In this document: positions 11,101-21,888 of the stretch, one piece after another | Numbering within the stretch: the stretch's first letter is position 1 | Layout of the letters: each line of letters begins with the position of its first letter | Source: Rubrivivax sp. | GTDB taxonomy: Bacteria > Pseudomonadota > Gammaproteobacteria > Burkholderiales > Burkholderiaceae_C | Direction of reading: 5' to 3' | Assembly: GCA_026785885.1 (NCBI GenBank) | Contig: JAJAZC010000034.1 | Span: forward strand, 1-52,443 | DNA length: 52,443 bases | Position numbers and translations under genes: made by a program | The notes under the pieces: generated by a model | Told to the model about the DNA's origin: nothing | Databases searched by the model: none | The model's input: the letters and a program-made list of their open reading frames with translations, nothing else

Positions 11101-12072
11101 TCAGCCAGCCACCACGCGCATCACGGCGCCGGCTTTCAGGCCTGACCCCGCACCGAACTCCGCACCGAAGTCCGCAACCGAGCCGCCGCGCTGCGGCTCG
11201 GGCTCGGCATCGAAACGCTCAAACCCGCAGTAGCACAAGAAGTGCCGGTTGGCCGCACGGCCAAACAGCGCCATGCCGAGCTTCGCAGCCAGCGCGTGCC
11301 CCATGGCCGTCACGCCGTTGCGCGACACGATGATCGGCACGCCCAACTGCGCGGCCTTCATCACCATCTCGCTGGTCAGGCGGCCGGTCGTGTAGAAAGC
11401 TTTGTCACTGCCGGCCACGCCGTGCAGGGCCATCCAGCCGGCAATGGTGTCGATGGCGTTGTGGCGGCCTACGTCCTCCACGAACATCAGCATCTCACTG
11501 GCCGCACCGCGTATGCCAAACAGCGCGCAGCCGTGCACCGAGCCGGCCTTGCGGTGAATGCTGTCCTGCTGGCGCATGGTCTCCAGCATGCGGTGCAGCG
11601 TGCTCTGGCGGATGCGCGCGGTGGCGGCATCCGGCAGCGCCACGGTATGCAACTGCTCCATCGCATCGCCGAACACGGTACCCTGCCCGCAGCCGGTGGT
11701 GACGACGCGGTGCGCCGTCTTGGCGGCGATGTCCTGCACACCGCGGTGCGTGCGCACAGCCGCAGCGCTGACGTCCCAATCGACCGTGACCGACTCGACC
11801 GCGCTCACATCGTCGATCAGGCGCTGGTTGCGCAGGTAGCCCAGCACCAGCAGCTCCGGCCGTGCGCCCAGCGTCATCAACGTGACCAGCTCGCGCTTGT
11901 CGACGAAGATCGTCAGCGGGCGCTCGGACGGAATCGCGATGTCGCGATGGGCGCCGTATTCGTCCTGCACGGTGATCTGGCGCAGCAACTCGCAGCGGGC
12001 GTCGGTCAGGCGCGGGGCGCCGGGGACCGTGGGCAGGTCCGCCAGAGTGGCGCTGACTTGCGACAGGCTCAC
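11101..12072 (-). CDS. fdhD: Formate dehydrogenase accessory sulfurtransferase FdhD
   Basis: 'VFVEDVGRHNAIDTIAGWMAL...FYTTGRLTSEMVMKAAQLGVPIIVSRNGVTAMGHALA'; GTG start overlaps upstream stop by 4 bp. Confidence 0.93.
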   Translation of the reverse strand: MSLSQVSATLADLPTVPGAPRLTDARCELLRQITVQDEYGAHRDIAIPSERPLTIFVDKRELVTLMTLGARPELLVLGYLRNQRLIDDVSAVESVTVDWDVSAAAVRTHRGVQDIAAKTAHRVVTTGCGQGTVFGDAMEQLHTVALPDAATARIRQSTLHRMLETMRQQDSIHRKAGSVHGCALFGIRGAASEMLMFVEDVGRHNAIDTIAGWMALHGVAGSDKAFYTTGRLTSEMVMKAAQLGVPIIVSRNGVTAMGHALAAKLGMALFGRAANRHFLCYCGFERFDAEPEPQRGGSVADFGAEFGAGSGLKAGAVMRVVAG

Positions 12073-12584
12073 TTCCTGGCCGGCGGCGTTGCTTGCGTTG
12101 CTGGCGCGGCGGGTGTCGTTGCCGGCGTGGAGTTGCTGGCCGTTGCAGGCGCGGTGCCCGCGGTCTGCGGCGTTTTGGCGTTGGGGGGGCCCACTGCAGT
12201 CGCAGCGGGCGAGTGGGCGCCCGCGGCTTCCAGCGGCGGGGTGGCCGCCGCTGGCGTGTACACAAACGCGCCGGGGTCGGTACAGGCAGCGGCGCCCGGG
12301 TCCGCCGGCTTCACGTCCTTGCCGTCTACCTTGGCCCGCGCAAAGTAGCTGGCCGCGACCTGGTCGATGCTTTTGCACAACTGGTAGGTGCCCACCTTGG
12401 TGTCGTAAGCAGCCTTGGCCGCGGCCTGCGCTGCCTTGGCCTTGGCTTCGTCGTTGGGTGCCGGCAACTTGCCATGCGCAAGCGGTGCTGACAGTGCGAG
12501 CGCGAGTGCGGCAACAGTCGCGGCGACAGTCGCAGCAAGCGGCGCCAAGCGCGACGCAGATGTGTTGGTTGCAGCCATCGTCAT
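12069..12584 (-). CDS. Exported Ala/Pro/Thr-rich hypothetical protein in FDH operon
   Basis: Hydrophobic leader MTMAATNTSASRLAPLAATVAATVAALALALSAPLAHG; position between FDH gamma and fdhD. Confidence 0.65.
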   Translation of the reverse strand: MTMAATNTSASRLAPLAATVAATVAALALALSAPLAHGKLPAPNDEAKAKAAQAAAKAAYDTKVGTYQLCKSIDQVAASYFARAKVDGKDVKPADPGAAACTDPGAFVYTPAAATPPLEAAGAHSPAATAVGPPNAKTPQTAGTAPATASNSTPATTPAAPATQATPPARK

Positions 12585-12601
12585 TGCCTCCAAACCAGTT
12601 T

Positions 12602-13774
12602 TCAAGACAAGCCCGCCGACGGCAGCGGCGCCACTGCGGCGCCCGTGCCGGCCGCTGCCGTGCGCTGCGCCGGTATGCGGCCGGCGCGCACGTCCTCGTA
12701 CCACCAGGCGTGGTGTTCCTGCGCCCAGGCTTCATCGACGTACCCGCTTCGCATGGCCTGGTAGCTGCCCTTCATGCCGATGGTGCCGATGTAGATGTGG
12801 CCGATGAACATGGTCATCATCAGCACACCGGCCACAGCGTGGACCATGTGCGCAATCTGCATCTGCCCGCGGGTGTCGCCCAAGCCGGGCACCAACCCGT
12901 TGAGCACCAGGCCGGACGCTACGACCAGCAGGCCGAGGAACAACACACCGCCCCAAAACACGACTTTTTCGCCGGCGTTGAAGCGGTGCGACGGCACCTC
13001 CTGCCCGCTCAACATGCCGCCGCCGCGCTTGAGCCAATGCCAGTCGCCACGTGCTGGCAGGTTGTCGCGCACGAAGGTCAAGAAGACGACCACCAACGAC
13101 ACGGCAAACACCGGGCCGACAAAGTTGTGGATGTTCTTCAGCGCATATGCCAGCCAGCCAAACAACGTGGCGCCCAGCACCGGCAGCAGCAAGGTCTTGC
13201 CGAAGGCCAGCACCAGGCCGGAAAGGGCCAACAGCACAAAGGCCACCGCGTTGGCCCAGTGCGCCGAGCGCTCGAATGGCGTGAAGCGCTCGATGCGCCG
13301 GCCGGTGTCGGCATGGCGGCCGCCCAAAGCGCCCTTGCGCCAGTAGAAGACGGCAATGGCGCCGGCCACGATCAACAGCAGCGCACCGCCGTAAGGAATG
13401 ATCCAGCGGTTGCGCACCTGGCGCCAGGCTTCGCCGGCGCTGGCCAGGCGCGAGCCCGGGTACTGCACAAAGGGTTGAATCAACACGCCCATCTCCGCCC
13501 CGGGCAACGAGGTCGTACCGCCCTGGTCGCGCACCGCACGCCAGACCGGCGCGTTGTTGCCGGGCTGCGAACGCGCGCGCTCGGCATTGCTTTCATCGGG
13601 CCTGGGTTCGGCCGGCGCCACGAAGCCGGCAGGCGGCCCGGGTTGGGCGCCAGGCGCTGCGGTCGGTACGGCCGGCTCTGCCGTCTGCGCCATGGCAGGC
13701 GGCAGCAGCACGGAGCCGAGCACCAGCACGGCACCGGACAAGAGCTTGAACATGCGGCCGGAGATCATCGGCAT
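12602..13774 (-). CDS. Formate dehydrogenase gamma subunit (cytochrome b)
   Basis: 'RRIERFTPFERSAHWANAVAFVLLALSGLVLAFGK...NIHNFVGPVFAVSLVVVFLTFVRDNLP...' FdnI/FdoI-like. Confidence 0.93.
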   Translation of the reverse strand: MPMISGRMFKLLSGAVLVLGSVLLPPAMAQTAEPAVPTAAPGAQPGPPAGFVAPAEPRPDESNAERARSQPGNNAPVWRAVRDQGGTTSLPGAEMGVLIQPFVQYPGSRLASAGEAWRQVRNRWIIPYGGALLLIVAGAIAVFYWRKGALGGRHADTGRRIERFTPFERSAHWANAVAFVLLALSGLVLAFGKTLLLPVLGATLFGWLAYALKNIHNFVGPVFAVSLVVVFLTFVRDNLPARGDWHWLKRGGGMLSGQEVPSHRFNAGEKVVFWGGVLFLGLLVVASGLVLNGLVPGLGDTRGQMQIAHMVHAVAGVLMMTMFIGHIYIGTIGMKGSYQAMRSGYVDEAWAQEHHAWWYEDVRAGRIPAQRTAAAGTGAAVAPLPSAGLS

Positions 13775-13850: not shown

Positions 13851-14081
13851 TCAACGCGCCGACGTGCGGGCGTACTCGTTTTGCCCCTGCGAGCGCGCTT
13901 TCAGCTGCGCCTCCCAACTGGCGTTGTCGCCGGCTTTCCAGCCCGGTGCCGTGTGGGTGCCGGTGTTGCCGGCCGAAGGATCGACGTCGGCCTTGCGGGT
14001 GCCGCTGGACTGTGGCTTCTCGGCACAGGCCGCCAGCAGCAGCACAACGGCCAGCAAGACCGGCAGCCGGGCCGAGCTCAT
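13851..14081 (-). CDS. Small lipoprotein in FDH operon
   Basis: 'MSSARLPVLLAVVLLLAACAEKPQ' lipobox; start overlaps the beta subunit stop. Confidence 0.65.
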   Translation of the reverse strand: MSSARLPVLLAVVLLLAACAEKPQSSGTRKADVDPSAGNTGTHTAPGWKAGDNASWEAQLKARSQGQNEYARTSAR

Positions 14082-14734
14082 GACTTCTTGACCTCGGGCT
14101 GGCTACTGTTGCCGTTGCCGCTGCCGGTGCCTTTGCCGTTGCCCGTGATCGGCTTGCCGTAGGCCGTGCCCCAGCCCCAGACCTCGCTGCCCTTGCCGCG
14201 TGTCAGCACGCGGGTGCGGAAGATGTCGGCCACAACATCACCGTCACCGCCCAGCAGCGCCTTGGTGCTGCACATCTCGGCGCAAGCCGGCAGCTTGCCT
14301 TCGGCCAGCCGGTTGCGGCCGTACTTTTCGTTCTCGGCCGCGCTGCCGTTGGCTTCAGGCCCGCCCGCGCAGAAGGTGCACTTGTCCATCTTGCCGCGCA
14401 GGCCGAAGGCTCCGTTGCTGGGGAACTGCGGCGCGCCGAAGGGGCAGGCGTAGCTGCAGTAGCCGCAGCCGATACAGGTGTCCTTGTCATGCAGTACGAC
14501 GCCTTCGGCGGTGCGATAAAAGCAGTCCACCGGGCACACCGCCATGCAGGGCGCGTCACTGCAGTGCATGCAGGCCACGCTGATACTTTTCTCGCCAGCC
14601 ACGCCGTCGTTGAGCGTTACCACGCGACGCCGGTTGACGCCCCACGGCACCTGGTGCTCTGCCTTGCAGGCGGTGACGCAGCCGTTGCATTCGATGCAAC
14701 GCTCGGCGTCGCAGATGAATTTCATGCGTGCCAT
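14078..14734 (-). CDS. Formate dehydrogenase beta subunit, 4Fe-4S ferredoxin-type
   Basis: 'MARMKFICDAERCIECNGCVTACKAEHQVPWGVNRRRVVTLNDG...' with multiple CxxCxxC motifs. Confidence 0.95.
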   Translation of the reverse strand: MARMKFICDAERCIECNGCVTACKAEHQVPWGVNRRRVVTLNDGVAGEKSISVACMHCSDAPCMAVCPVDCFYRTAEGVVLHDKDTCIGCGYCSYACPFGAPQFPSNGAFGLRGKMDKCTFCAGGPEANGSAAENEKYGRNRLAEGKLPACAEMCSTKALLGGDGDVVADIFRTRVLTRGKGSEVWGWGTAYGKPITGNGKGTGSGNGNSSQPEVKKS

Positions 14735-14782
14735 TGATGGCTCCTGAGACGTGAACTCGAGCCGCCCCGAGGCAGGCAACGG

Positions 14783-14825: not shown

Positions 14826-17789
14826 TCATGCCGCCCGCTCGACCTGGCAAACGGTGGTCTTGGTTTCTTGCATCATGGTCACGCTGTCGTAGCCGTAGGT
14901 AGTGGCCGTGTTGACCGCCTCACCGCGAACGATCGGCGCCGCGCCCTTCGGGTAGTGCGCCAACATGTCCACGCCTTGCCAGTGGCCGGCAAAGTGGTAG
15001 GGCATGAAGGCGGTGTCGCTGCCCACGCGCTCCGTCACTTGTGCCTTGACCTTGATGCGCGCCCCGGTGGGCGTGCTGACCCAGACGTCCTCGCCGTTGC
15101 GGATGCCGCGGTCGTTGGCTGCTTTCGGGTTGATCTCGATGAACATGTGCTGCTGCAGCTCGGCGAGATAGCGGTTAGAGCGTGTCTCGTCGCCGCCGCC
15201 TTCGTACTCCACCAGGCGGCCGCTGGTCAGGATGATCGGAAACTTCTGGCCGATGTCCTTGTTCTTCTCCTGCACCGACTTGAACAGCGTAGGCAGCCGC
15301 CAGAACGCCTTGCGGTCGTCATGGGTCGGGTACTTCGCCACCAGCTCTGGGCGCGTCGAATACAAAGGCTCGCGGTGCTGCGGAATCGGATCGGGGAAGT
15401 TCCACACTACCGCGCGCGCCCGTGCGTTGCCGAAGGGATGGCAGCCGTGGTTTTTCATGGCCACGCGGATGATGCCGCCGGAGCTGTCGGTCTTCCAGTT
15501 CTTGCCTTCGGCCTTCTTCTGCTCGTCTTCGGACAACTCGCCCCACCAGCCCAACTTCTTCAGCAGCAGGTGATCGAATTCCGGATAGCCGGTGGTCAGG
15601 TCGCAGCCCTTGGAATGTGAGCCGTCGGCCGCCAACAGCGACTGGCCGTCACGCTCGACGCCGAAGTTGGCGCGGAAGTTACCGCCGCCATCCATCACGT
15701 GCTTGGAGGTGTCGTACAGGATGTGCGTGCCCGGGTGCTTCATCTCGGGCGTTCCCCAACAGGGCCAGGGCAGGCCGAAGTAATCGCCGTCCAGCTGGTA
15801 GCCGGTCTCCTTGTCGATGCCACCTTTGGCACGCAGCGTGTTGACGTCGAAGACGTGCATGTTGCGCATGTGGGCCTTCAGCCGCTCCGGGCTCTGCCCG
15901 GTGTAGCCGATGGTCCAGACCGAGCGGTTGATTTCGCGCAGGATGTCCTCCGGCAAGGGCTCGTCCAGACCCTTGACCTTCTGCATCTTGTAGTTCTTGA
16001 CCAGCTGCTCGCCGAAGCCCAGCTTTTGCGCGAGCTGGTACATGATCATGTGGTCACTGCGCGATTCGAACAGCGGGTCGATGACCTTCTCGCGCCACTG
16101 CAACGACCGGTTCGATGCGGTGACAGAGCCACTGGTCTCGAACTGCGTACATGCCGGCAGCAGGTACACGGCGCGCTTCGGGTTCAGGTCTTCGGCCATG
16201 CCCGGCATCGCGGCCATGGCTGCGGTGGCCGATGGGTACGGGTCCACCACCACCAGCAGATCCAGCTTGTCCATGGCCTTCTTGAGGTCGAGGCCACGGG
16301 TCTGCGAATTGGGTGCGTGGCCCCAATAGAACATGCCGCGCAGGTTGCTGTCCTGGTCGATGAGCTCGTTCTTCTCGAGCACGGCATCGAACCACCGCGA
16401 GACAGTCAGGCCCGCCTTGCTCATCATGCCCGGCGCGTACTGCTTCTTCATCCACTCGAAGTCCACGCCCCAGGCAGCGGCAAAGTGCTTGAACGATCCC
16501 TCGGAAAGGCCGTAGTAGCCAGGCAACGAGTCCGGGTTGGAGCCGACGTCGGTGATGCCCTGCACGTTGTCGTGGCCGCGGAAGATGTTGGCGCCACCGC
16601 CACTCTTGCCCACGTTGCCCAGCGCTAGCTGCAGCAGGCAGGAGGCCCGCACCATGGCGTTGCCGATGGTGTGCTGGGTGTGACCCACGCACCAGACCAG
16701 CGTGCTGGGCCGGTTCTCGGCCATCGTCTTGGCAACCTGCAAGCACTCGGCCTCGGTGACGCCCGAGGCCTCGAGCACCTTGTCGGGCGTCCACTTGGCG
16801 AGCACCTCTTCGCGCACCTTGTCCATCGCCCAGACGCGGTCGGCGATGTACTGCTTGTCTTCCCAGCCGTTGTTGAAGACGTGGTACAGCACGCCATAAA
16901 GAAACGGAATGTCGGCCCCCGAGCGCATGCGCACGTACTGGTCGGCCTTGGCTGCCGTGCGGGTGAACCGGGGGTCCACCACGATCATCTTGCAGCCCTT
17001 CTCCTTGGCATGCAGCATGTGCAGCATCGACACCGGATGTGCTTCGGCAGCATTGCTGCCGATGTACATCGCAGCCTTGCTGTTCTGCATGTCGTTGTAC
17101 GAGTTGGTCATCGCACCGTAGCCCCACGTATTCGCCACACCGGCGACTGTTGTGGAGTGGCATATTCGTGCCTGGTGATCGCAGTTGTTACTGCCCCAGA
17201 AGGACATCCACTTTCTGAGCAGGTACCCCTGCTCGTTGTTGCTCTTGCACGAGCCGACGATGAAGACGCTGTCGGGGCCGCTTTCGCGCTTCAGCTCCAG
17301 CATGCGGGCGCTGATCTCGTCCAGCGCCACATCCCAAGTGATGCGCTCGTACTTGCCGTTCACGAGCTTCATCGGGTACTTCAGCCGGAACTCGCCGTGC
17401 GCGTTGTCGCGCACCGCCGCACCTTTGGCGCAATGCGCACCCAGGTTGATGGGCGAGTCGAACACCGGCTCCTGGCGCACCCAGATGCCGTTTTCGACCA
17501 CGGCGTCGATGGCACAACCCACCGAGCAGTGGGTGCAGACCGTGCGCTTGACTTCGACCTTGGCACCTCCCGCAATGGCTGCGCCCGCCTTCTCGACAGC
17601 GTCGGCCTTGCGTACCAGCGTGAGTTGCGATGCGGCGATGCCCACCCCGAGGCCCAGCCCGGAGCGGCGCAAAAACTTGCGCCGGTCCATCGTGGGCAGC
17701 GCGCGGGCCAAGCCCCGCGCCAGACCGTCGACCAGCGTCCGCGTCGGCGGTGCCGCCCCGTGCGCGGGCGACGTGCGTGTCAAGAGCAT
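14826..17789 (-). CDS. Formate dehydrogenase alpha subunit (Mo/W-bisPGD), candidate selenoprotein with Sec encoded by TGC at 17160-17162
   Basis: TAT signal (MDRRKFLRRSGLGLGVG), CTHCSVGC 4Fe-4S site, 'DHQARICHSTTVAGVANTWGYGAMTN' catalytic motif where E. coli FdnG has U. Confidence 0.96.
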   Translation of the reverse strand: MLLTRTSPAHGAAPPTRTLVDGLARGLARALPTMDRRKFLRRSGLGLGVGIAASQLTLVRKADAVEKAGAAIAGGAKVEVKRTVCTHCSVGCAIDAVVENGIWVRQEPVFDSPINLGAHCAKGAAVRDNAHGEFRLKYPMKLVNGKYERITWDVALDEISARMLELKRESGPDSVFIVGSCKSNNEQGYLLRKWMSFWGSNNCDHQARICHSTTVAGVANTWGYGAMTNSYNDMQNSKAAMYIGSNAAEAHPVSMLHMLHAKEKGCKMIVVDPRFTRTAAKADQYVRMRSGADIPFLYGVLYHVFNNGWEDKQYIADRVWAMDKVREEVLAKWTPDKVLEASGVTEAECLQVAKTMAENRPSTLVWCVGHTQHTIGNAMVRASCLLQLALGNVGKSGGGANIFRGHDNVQGITDVGSNPDSLPGYYGLSEGSFKHFAAAWGVDFEWMKKQYAPGMMSKAGLTVSRWFDAVLEKNELIDQDSNLRGMFYWGHAPNSQTRGLDLKKAMDKLDLLVVVDPYPSATAAMAAMPGMAEDLNPKRAVYLLPACTQFETSGSVTASNRSLQWREKVIDPLFESRSDHMIMYQLAQKLGFGEQLVKNYKMQKVKGLDEPLPEDILREINRSVWTIGYTGQSPERLKAHMRNMHVFDVNTLRAKGGIDKETGYQLDGDYFGLPWPCWGTPEMKHPGTHILYDTSKHVMDGGGNFRANFGVERDGQSLLAADGSHSKGCDLTTGYPEFDHLLLKKLGWWGELSEDEQKKAEGKNWKTDSSGGIIRVAMKNHGCHPFGNARARAVVWNFPDPIPQHREPLYSTRPELVAKYPTHDDRKAFWRLPTLFKSVQEKNKDIGQKFPIILTSGRLVEYEGGGDETRSNRYLAELQQHMFIEINPKAANDRGIRNGEDVWVSTPTGARIKVKAQVTERVGSDTAFMPYHFAGHWQGVDMLAHYPKGAAPIVRGEAVNTATTYGYDSVTMMQETKTTVCQVERAA
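17121..17159 (-). promoter_or_regulatory. Candidate bSECIS-like hairpin immediately 3' of the catalytic TGC codon
   Basis: On minus strand: TGC CAC TCC ACA ACA GTC GCC GGT GTG GCG AAT ACG TGG GGC. Upper stem UCGCC/GGCGA (5 bp), GGUGU loop, lower stem CUCCAC/GUGGGG (6 bp incl. one U-G); 18 nt from codon to apical loop. Confidence 0.55.
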
Positions 17790-18380: not shown

Positions 18381-20312
18381 TTGATCATCGGCACTGCAGG
18401 TCACATCGACCACGGCAAGACCTCGCTCGTCAAGGCGCTGACTGGCATCGACGCTGACCGGCTGAAAGAGGAAAAAGAGCGCGGCATCACCATCGACCTC
18501 GGCTTCGCTTATCACGCGCTGCCTGACGGTGAGGTGCTGGGCTTTGTCGATGTGCCCGGCCACGAGAAGCTGGTGCGCAACATGCTGGCCGGAGCCACCG
18601 GCATAGACCACGTGATGCTGGTCATCGCCGCCGACGACGGCCCGATGCCGCAGACGCGTGAGCACCTGGCCATCCTGCACCTGTTGGGTCTGTCGCAGGG
18701 CGTGGTGGCCTTGAGCAAGTGCGACCTCGTCGGGCCAGAGCGGCTGGCTGCGGCCCTGGCCGAGGTGCAGCAGCTGCTGGCCGGCAGTGTGCTGGCCGCT
18801 GCACCCGTGCTGCCCGTGTCATCGCTCACCGGCCGGGGTATCGCTGAACTAGCAGCGCACTTGGCACGTTCGCGGGTGCCGCTGCCAGACGGTGCGGCAA
18901 GCGGCCAATTTCGGCTGGCCATCGACCGCAGCTTCACGCTGGCCGGCATCGGCACGGTGGTTACGGGTACCGCAGTGGCCGGGCAGGTTGCAGTGGGCGA
19001 CAAGTTGATGCTTTCGCCGAGCGGGCAGGCCGTGCGCGTGCGCGGCCTGCACGCTCAGAACCACCGCGCCGACAGCGGCCACGCCGGCCAACGCCTGGCG
19101 TTGAACCTGGCGGGCGTCGAGAAAAACGGGGTCCGCCGCGGCGACTGGCTGCTGGCCGAGGCCCTGCACGCGCCGACCCAGCGCATAGCCGCGCGGCTGC
19201 AGGTGCTGGCCAGCGAGCCGCGGCCGCTGGCACACCGCACGCCGCTGCACCTGCACCTGGGTGCACAAGACGCCGGCGCGCGCGTCGTGCTGCTGGAAGG
19301 CAAGGCGATCGAGCCCGGCGCCAGCGCCTGGGTCGAGCTGGAGCTCGAACGCCCGATCGGCGCGCTGCACGGCGACCGTTTCATCGTGCGCGACCAGTCG
19401 GCTTTGCGCACCGTGGGCGGCGGCAGCGTCACCGATGCCTTTGCACCCGACAGCCGGCGCCACCGCACGGAGCGCGTGGCATCGCTGATGGCGCTCGACC
19501 AACCCACGCCCGCCGCCGCACTGGCCGCCGCAATGGCGCTGGAGCCCGCCGGCGGCATCGACGCCCAAGCCTTTTGTACGCAGTGGAACCTTACCGAAGG
19601 CCAGCGCCAGGCGCTGCTGGCCGCGCTGCCGCACCGCGTGGTGCAGGGCGCAGGGGACGGCGGCCACGCGCTGCTGTTTGCGCCGGCACAGATGGATCGC
19701 TACAGCGCCGCGCTGGCCGCACACCTCGGCGCCTGGCACCGCAAGCAACCCGACAGCCCGGGGCTGACACAAGAGCAGCTGCAGCGCGCCGTCCGCGACA
19801 GGCCCGCCAACGCGGTGTTTGCGCTGCTGCTGCGCCAACTCGTGAAGGACGGCGTGCTCAAGCGCAGCGGTGCCCAGCACGCGCTGCCCGGGCACGACCC
19901 TTCACTGCAGGGCGTGGACAAACAGATCTGGGAACGTCTGAAGCCCTGGCTGGACGAAGGTGGCATTCACCCGCCGCGGTTCAGCGACCTGTTGCTGCGC
20001 GACCGCAGCCTGCGCAAGGACCAGTTGCTGCGCGTGCTGGAGCGGCTGCAGCGCATGGGCGCGGTGCACGCGGTCGGGGCCGAGTACTTCATCCTAACGC
20101 CGCACCTGCTGGACCTGGCGACCCGGGCCTACCTGCTGACCGAGGCCGACGCCAACAGGCGGCTCAACGTCAAGGAGCTGCGCGAGAGCACCGGCATCAG
20201 CCGGCACCTGTCGGTGCCGCTGGTAGAGTATTTCGATCAGATCGGGCTGACCAAGCGTGATGAGGTCGGGCGCCATTTCAGGCGCGACCCGCGCAAGGCG
20301 CTTGTCACCTGA
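18381..20312 (+). CDS. selB: Selenocysteine-specific elongation factor SelB
   Basis: '[43 protein letters not shown]' and C-terminal winged-helix region; TTG start. Confidence 0.97.
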
Positions 20313-20328: not shown

Positions 20329-20425
20329 GGAGGAGGATCGACTCCCGGTGGGGCGTCCGGTCTGCAAAACCGGGTGGGGCTGCCCTGCGGTCCCAGGTGG
20401 GTTCGACTCCCACCCCCCTCCGCCA
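20329..20425 (+). tRNA. selC: tRNA-Sec with non-canonical GCA anticodon (20364-20366), CCA encoded
   Basis: Between selB and selA; 97 nt; 8-bp acceptor (one A-C mismatch), 6-position D stem (one A-G mismatch), anticodon arm CCGGT-CTGCAAA-ACCGG, long variable arm GGGGCTGC-CCT-GCGGTCCC, T arm GTGGG-TTCGACT-CCCAC, G discriminator, CCA; lines up with E. coli selC apart from U34 to G34 at the anticodon. Confidence 0.9.
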
Positions 20426-20457: not shown

Positions 20458-21888
20458 ATGACCACTGCCAGCCTGCGCCCGCCGGCTACGGACAAGCTGC
20501 TGGACAGTGACGCGATGCGTGCACTGGCCTTGCAGCACGGCCGCGTCGCGCTGTTGGCGGTGGCGCGCGAAGCGCTCGGGCACTGGCGCGCGCAGACGCC
20601 GCAACAGGCCTTCGAGCCGGCACCGTTCGAGGCCCGCTGCAGCGCCGCGTTGCAGCAGCAGGCAGCACCCGCTTTGCGGCCGGTGTTCAACTTGACCGGC
20701 ACCGTGTTGCACACCAATCTGGGCCGCGCGGTGATGGCGCCCGAGGCCATAGCGGCCGTCGTGGCCGTGATGCGGGGCGCGTCCAACCTCGAGTACGACC
20801 TGGCCGCTGGCGGGCGCGGCGACCGCGACGACCATGTCGACGGGCTACTGAAGGAACTCACCGGCGCCGAGGCCGCCACCGCAGTCAACAACAACGCCGC
20901 GGCGGTGCTGCTGGTGCTGGCAGCCCTGGCCGATCGCAAAGAAGTGCCGGTGTCGCGCGGCGAGCTGATCGAGATCGGCGGCGCCTTTCGCATCCCCGAC
21001 ATCATGCGCAGGGCCGGCGCCAAGCTGGTCGAGGTCGGCACCACCAACCGCACCCATCTGCGCGACTTCGAAGAAGCCATCGGCCCGCGCACGGCGCTGG
21101 TGATGAAGGTGCATGCCAGCAACTACGCCATCCAGGGCTTCACGGCCAGCGTGCCGGTGACTGAGCTGGCCGCGTTGTGCAAGGCCCGTGGCCTGCCGTT
21201 TGTCGAAGACCTGGGCAGCGGCACGCTGGTGGACCTGACGCGCTGGGGCCTGCCGGCCGAACCGACGCCAGCGCAGTCCATCTCAGCCGGCGCCAACGTC
21301 GTCACCTTCAGCGCCGACAAGCTGCTGGGCGGCCCGCAGGCCGGCCTCATCGTCGGCGACAAGCTGTTGATTCAGAGGATCAAGAAGCACCCGCTGAAGC
21401 GCGCGCTGCGGCTGGACAAGATGACGCTGGCAGCGTTGGAAGCCACGCTCAAGCTCTACCGCGACCCCGACCGCCTAGCGCAGCGCCTGCCCACGCTGCG
21501 CTTGTTGACGCGTACTGAAGCCGACATCCGGCTGCAGACCGAACGCCTGGCACCGGCGCTGGCGCAGGCGCTCGGCACGCGCTGCCAGGTGCAGGTGCTG
21601 GCCTGCCGCAGCCAAATCGGCAGCGGCTCGCTGCCGGTGGACCGGCTGCCCAGTGCTTGCCTGGCCATCGGTGCTGCAGCTGGCGGCAACGGTGTCGTCA
21701 AGGCTGGCAGCAAGCGCGCCGGCAGCCTGCCCGATCGCTTGGCCGAAGCGATGCGCGCGCTGCCGCTGCCGGTCATCGGCCGTATCGAAGACGGCCAGCT
21801 GCGGTTGGACCTGCGCTGCCTCGACAGCGCCGACGCCGAAGCGGCTTTCGCCGAGCAGCTGCCGCTGCTGGCGCAAGCAACGCTTTAA
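20458..21888 (+). CDS. selA: L-seryl-tRNA(Sec) selenium transferase
   Basis: '[19 protein letters not shown]...[14 protein letters not shown]...[15 protein letters not shown]'. Confidence 0.97.

Follow-up and report, generated by a model that had tools for sequence, protein, structure and literature searches.

Can a sense codon for cysteine specify selenocysteine (Sec) in a natural bacterial gene? The question is raised by a locus of Rubrivivax sp. in which the alpha-subunit gene of a formate dehydrogenase (FDH) carries TGC at the position aligned with Sec and lies next to a tRNASec gene with the anticodon GCA. The window, by which we mean the whole analysed stretch of 52,443 nucleotides, comes from an assembly of 3.33 Mb in 227 contigs that is 90% complete. 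With high confidence, we consider it to contain a complete module for decoding Sec, with UGC as the Sec codon at position 210 of an FDH3-type alpha subunit. Charging of the tRNA, binding of SelB and incorporation of Sec are inferred, and no selenium data are available; the parts of the module (Table 1), their linkage, the frozen sequence element and the match between codon and anticodon are observed in the DNA.

Table 1. Features of the candidate Sec-decoding locus, in window positions
Feature	Position	Strand	Basis
fdhD, sulfurtransferase for FDH maturation	11101..12735	-	PF02634, 239 bits
FDH gamma, cytochrome b subunit	12602..13774	-	TIGR01583, 166 bits, cut-off 115.85
FDH3 beta, iron-sulfur subunit	14078..14779	-	NF038355, 335 bits, cut-off 240
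FDH3-type formate dehydrogenase alpha subunit, 987 aa, candidate selenoprotein (Sec at residue 210)	14826..17789	-	ORF and translation; Molybdopterin oxidoreductase domains
Island spanning codons 206-225 with frozen synonymous sites; rare CGA-ATA directly before TGC	17115..17174	-	Codon entropy, rare codon frequencies
Codon and bSECIS	17121..17162	-	Fold, pair counts, covariance model R1 match of 60.5 bits
Codon 210 = TGC, proposed Sec codon of FDH3 alpha	17160..17162	-	tblastn alignment with TGA of FdnG-type FDHs
selB, Sec-specific elongation factor	18381..20312	+	TIGR00475, 387.8 bits, cut-off 242.25
selC, tRNASec, anticodon GCA at 20364-20366, G73	20329..20425	+	Rfam RF01852, 65.9 bits, curated cut-off 47
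selA, Ser-tRNASec to Sec-tRNASec synthase	20458..21888	+	TIGR00474, 571 bits, cut-off 267.9; start codon picked from sequence

The FDH cluster on the minus strand faces away from the plus-strand sel genes, among which selC is situated between selB and selA. All three are intact, and selD is found on another contig of the same genome. The initial annotation had placed TGC at the Sec position by alignment with E. coli FdnG, and this placement holds: codon 210, in the context ARI-C-HSTTVAGVANTWGYGAMTN, is paired by tblastn with the in-frame TGA of FdnG-type FDHs. The gene itself, however, is not of the FdnG type; it belongs to FDH3 and descends from Cys enzymes. The closest solved chain, FdhA of PDB 9vap, is homologous over its full length and shares the ARICHSTTVAGVANTWGYGA motif; it is a Cys enzyme for which no Sec module was considered, whereas the alpha subunit of the window is a candidate Sec enzyme. 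The closest named FDH relatives come from Rubrivivax, Aquincola, Piscinibacter and other Burkholderiales, and many are MAGs. At the far end of the cluster, the fdhD ORF encodes 544 aa, with the FdhD domain restricted to residues 270-508, and its first half is probably due to an over-long ORF or else to a fusion.

The hairpin predicted downstream of codon 210 folds as claimed, with a lower stem CUCCAC/GUGGGG (17157-17152 with 17127-17122), an internal loop, the strands UCGCC/GGCGA, a GGUGU loop (17141-17137) and a codon-to-loop distance of 18 nt; U17 is at 17146 and the upper stem pairs 17145-17142 with 17136-17133. It meets the description of a bacterial SECIS, that is, a hairpin directly 3' of the codon, carrying U where the bulge is expected and GU within the apical loop. 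As evidence, the hairpin taken by itself proved to be weak. The whole structure is formed in none of 88 Cys-FDH controls, but dinucleotide shuffles fold about equally well (z = -0.27 with a 56-nt and -1.27 with a 46-nt segment), and column-wise synonymous sampling yields energies as low in 7% and 3% of cases, so fold energy was dropped as evidence. Moreover, in 17% of the controls the upper stem and a GGTnT loop are already present, this part being almost fixed by the protein sequence. These weaknesses are what could be expected of an ordinary Cys formate dehydrogenase that happens to lie beside an unrelated or decaying Sec module, with the hairpin a by-product of protein sequence and codon bias; that most of the family runs Cys-coded FDH3 without selC points in the same direction. 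Given the shuffles and the controls, the claim had to rest on comparison.

Canonical UGA-type bSECIS elements of FdnG-type FDHs provide the first comparison. U17 and the loop at positions 22-26 share their register with 14 distinct UGA-type SECIS from the same family, and both types have a hairpin directly after the codon, a 4-bp upper stem and an nGUnU loop at equal distance. The element of the window differs in having UGC instead of UGA, GGUGU instead of AGUCU or GGUCU in the loop, a 6-bp lower stem of its own and a host gene from another FDH subfamily. Between the GCA and UGA groups, two of the four pairs (18-30 and 21-27) differ at both bases; in the pair counts, 98.4% of cells are paired and 10 cells are two-sided, with much lower values for slid controls. 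Inside the GCA group the pairs are invariant, and covariation is therefore seen only in comparison with the UGA SECIS. The 42-nt element varies there only at positions 12, 15 and 42, all unpaired in the proposed structure. A search with the covariance model R1, built from the elements of both groups, gave one 60-bit match per selC-GCA genome, always in FDH3 alpha, and only 28 and 24 bits in two genomes of the same genus as the window (G196 and G270, respectively). Besides FDH, model R1 found no convincing SECIS in the selC-GCA genomes; a SECIS unlike the model would escape this search. SelD was considered as a second UGC selenoprotein and rejected, since no unusual conservation was seen in the codons flanking its Cys.

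The second comparison concerns synonymous sites. Across 26 FDH genes taken from genomes or contigs with selC-GCA, mean synonymous entropy falls to about 0.15 bit in the 15-codon intervals that start at codons 206-208 (codons 206-222). These are the lowest values among 615 intervals, and the gene as a whole averages 0.68. In 105 control FDH3 genes of relatives, the entropy of codons 208-225 is 1.02 against a gene mean of 0.89, i.e. above average. Not all of the control genomes had their selC status checked; the controls include one carrier of the island (L129), and the comparison is therefore conservative. For most pairs of GCA-group genes, only ~60-75% of the codons at identical residues agree once the island is set aside. 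Directly before TGC, two rare codons are invariant, CGA (2.5% of Arg codons in these genes) and ATA (1.2% of Ile codons). The hexamer CGAATA occurs twice around the codon, at 17163-17168 before TGC and at 17131-17136 beyond the upper stem, and neither copy varies within the group.

The initial annotation had stated that a hairpin conserved no further than its amino acids demand would refute the claim. The claim survived: the sites are frozen only in the presence of selC-GCA, or where the selC locus is lost at a contig end. Conservation beyond amino-acid constraint in the Sec-type genes and its absence in the Cys genes are as expected of a SECIS; an ordinary Cys FDH3 should have no extra synonymous constraint at its active-site Cys, and here this site falls in the lowest-entropy interval of the gene. 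Because the frozen sites are confined to the selC-GCA group, where selA, selB and selC are intact and the SECIS model detects no other strong target, only a slight chance remains for an ordinary Cys enzyme with an incidental hairpin.

A slimmer chance still is left to a conserved island with a role unrelated to Sec; it might, for instance, hold a promoter inside the gene or a regulatory RNA site, or lie at a recombination hot spot by which its sequence is held uniform. The conservation does run further than a minimal SECIS, to GCA CGA ATA on the 5' side of the codon and to TAC GGT after the hairpin, which leaves the upstream CGA-ATA unexplained. However, the island is centred on the exact Sec codon and keeps U17 and the loop in the register of UGA SECIS. 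Furthermore, the flanking codons diverged normally, and a plasmid collection queried with selC and the island yielded no copy of the island, only distant relatives. The sole carrier without a visible selC-GCA is L129, a sibling of the GCA-group genes on a 5-kb contig that ends inside selB, so that its selC cannot be seen.

Sec decoding at codon 210 is further supported by the linkage between codon and anticodon. A strong selC is present in ~80 of 301 genomes of the family, and the fetched loci comprise 76 with UCA and four with GCA (the window; G095, from the same genus; G038; and G243). Wherever an FDH motif lies in reach of a UCA locus, the codon is TGA in an FdnG-type gene, in every case; at the GCA loci it is TGC in FDH3. 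Thus, the anticodon of tRNASec matches the codon, GCA being found with UGC in all selC-GCA genomes or contigs where both could be read. FDH3 itself occurs in 147 of the 301 genomes and is otherwise an ordinary Cys enzyme, with no stop inside the gene among the matches listed. The genome scan for FDH3 added 80 loci, three of which (L121, L122 and L178) carry the DNA island of the window, and all three genomes have selC-GCA. In G309, G314 and G316 the island is missing and selC has UCA, and the same-genus genomes G196 and G270 have an ordinary FDH3, no selC above 66 bits and no full SelB. A metagenome scan blind to FDH, which used only a pattern for long-arm tRNAs with GCA, yielded at least 43 contigs with tRNA of the selC-GCA type. 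Among the matches listed, the full codon-210 motif is contained in 19 contigs, and all 19 read CGAATA TGC CACTCCACNACNGTCGCCGGTGTGGCGAATACGTGGGGN; a twentieth contig picked by its tRNA stops partway through the motif and matches over the part it contains.

Two side observations were made among these relatives. The MAG G301 contains both GCA (L247 or L404) and UCA (L233, L410 or L447) tRNASec together with two distant SelBs, no UGA gene being recognised near the UCA copy; contamination is possible since this genome is a MAG. In two relatives of the UCA type, L043 (near 6795, reverse) and L045 (6225-7817), a gene for a family-5 solute-binding protein (PF00496) adjoining selB has an in-frame UGA in the context GNW-U-VIDEPGPWGTGPF, followed by identical DNA in both; judging from these sequences, it is a candidate UGA selenoprotein.

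The GCA-anticodon tRNASec adjoining the FDH genes, as reported in the initial annotation, is real by its Rfam score, G73 and a 9-bp variable arm, and it is the sole tRNASec above the Rfam cut-off in the genome, the lower matches being Ser, Tyr, Arg, Gly and Phe tRNAs. Across 28 distinct relatives, this type has G73 (28/28), an 8-bp acceptor stem, a 5-bp T stem, a 6-bp D stem and the same variable arm, as required of tRNASec with its 13-bp acceptor/T branch. The copy of the window has one acceptor mismatch; such single mismatches are common in selC-GCA copies, affecting pair 6 in 13 of 28 and pair 8 in 7 of 28. As foreseen in the initial annotation, standard annotation would miss the candidate selenoprotein, for it shows an ordinary cysteine enzyme, and ARAGORN labels the tRNA as tRNA-Cys GCA. 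The least credible alternative, in which this tRNA, like selC* tRNACys, is charged with Cys and SelB delivers Cys, can appeal to that label and to the GCA anticodon as an identity element of CysRS, yet it is contradicted by G73 in place of the U73 of selC* tRNACys (PMC7609411) and by an intact selA, and it would have SelB bring Cys to a Cys codon without evident purpose. According to PMC7609411, selC* tRNACys shares with the selC of the window a tRNASec-like body, the GCA anticodon and an association with SelB; it differs in its 8/4 body and in decoding Sec UGA codons as Cys, in contrast to the 8/5 body and the proposed reading of UGC as Sec here. A pattern search found no normal tRNA-Cys in the window's own incomplete genome and found one of 74 nt in four of six related selC-GCA genomes. 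On four metagenome contigs (L255, L303, L317 and L322), GCA tRNAs with a long variable arm have a normal 7/5 body and discriminator U; these are class-II-like tRNA-Cys, not tRNASec.

In the proposed mechanism, SerRS would charge tRNASec(GCA) with Ser, as inferred from G73 and the tRNASec body, and SelA would turn Ser-tRNASec into Sec-tRNASec using selenophosphate from SelD. SelB would then carry Sec-tRNASec and bind the hairpin right after codon 210, so that Sec is predicted at that one UGC, and other UGC codons, having no SECIS, would stay Cys via normal tRNA-Cys. Sec insertion at UGC, as the initial annotation had predicted, is supported as an interpretation by the synonymous conservation and the co-occurrence with selC-GCA. 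Since Cys-tRNACys also reads UGC, a failed Sec insertion should give a Cys enzyme and not a truncated one. As the gene descended from Cys enzymes, ordinary tRNA-Cys probably competes at this codon, and a selenium-dependent mixture of Sec and Cys forms is likely, by inference, in a ratio that remains unmeasured. By analogy with the solved Cys-type FdhA and the many Cys FDH3s, the Cys form may be expected to work. In E. coli, weak 75Se labelling was obtained from UGC plus a SECIS even with a UCA tRNA (PMC3834832).

The phylogeny bears on how this arrangement arose. The FDH3 genes with the element form one clade (SH-aLRT 99%), which under midpoint rooting lies beside and most simply within Cys FDH3, and the SelB proteins of the GCA group fall together in a single clade (100% support) placed among the UCA-type SelBs. 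Across the class, the codon-210 site of FDH3 is TGT or TGC in all 29 genes read. A UGA-coded FDH3 ancestor was not found among the family matches listed, and the only stop among 47 class members is a TAA in one fragment. As the element clade is nested in Cys-coded FDH3, Sec was probably gained without codon change; the simplest reading of sequences and trees, though inferred, has selC switching from the UCA to the GCA type and a Cys gene gaining a SECIS with its codon unchanged. The FDH-sel cluster may have been transferred as one unit, since the window and G095, of one genus, fall in different branches and G196 and G270 are without the clade. A fuller hypothesis, evenly balanced between acceptance and doubt, is that the anticodon switch and the SECIS conferred Sec on an ancestral Cys codon and created a fail-safe gene, which would make the Sec form under ample selenium and a functional Cys enzyme otherwise. 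The rare codons CGA-ATA may slow the ribosome and favour SelB, which is a guess.

Sec at Cys codons with tRNASec(GCA) has already been described in Aeromonas salmonicida (Mukai et al. 2016, 10.1002/anie.201511657), and the present case is therefore not the first of its kind. This work is known here through PMC10778597, PMC11415595 and PMC8124441, which name the codon as UGU, as UGC, and as UGC/UGU in some bacteria, respectively. By these accounts, both systems combine a GCA-anticodon tRNASec, SelB and a SECIS to read a Cys codon as Sec; the present group differs from that of Aeromonas in being a Burkholderiales clade with its own SelB and an FDH3-type gene nested in Cys-coded relatives. Some Burkholderiales tRNASec(GCA) may already be listed in the supplement of Mukai et al. 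What is added appears to be how broad and how deep the clade is, the origin of its gene in Cys-coded FDH3 and the comparative evidence for a SECIS on a sense codon, as judged from a literature search that did not include Mukai et al. 2016 itself. In the UAG-coded Sec of Geodermatophilaceae, as far as PMC5330540 relates it, the tRNASec anticodon and the Sec codon likewise depart together from the usual pair; the codon is a stop codon there and a sense codon here.

If the inferred Sec incorporation is correct, the locus represents a local expansion of the genetic code at a sense codon, fixed across a deep bacterial clade. Catalogues of selenoproteins based on UGA would overlook such cases, and Sec insertion at a sense codon would be directly useful to protein engineers. 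For the FDH3 family, the finding suggests a possible route from a Cys enzyme to a selenoenzyme without a stop-codon stage.
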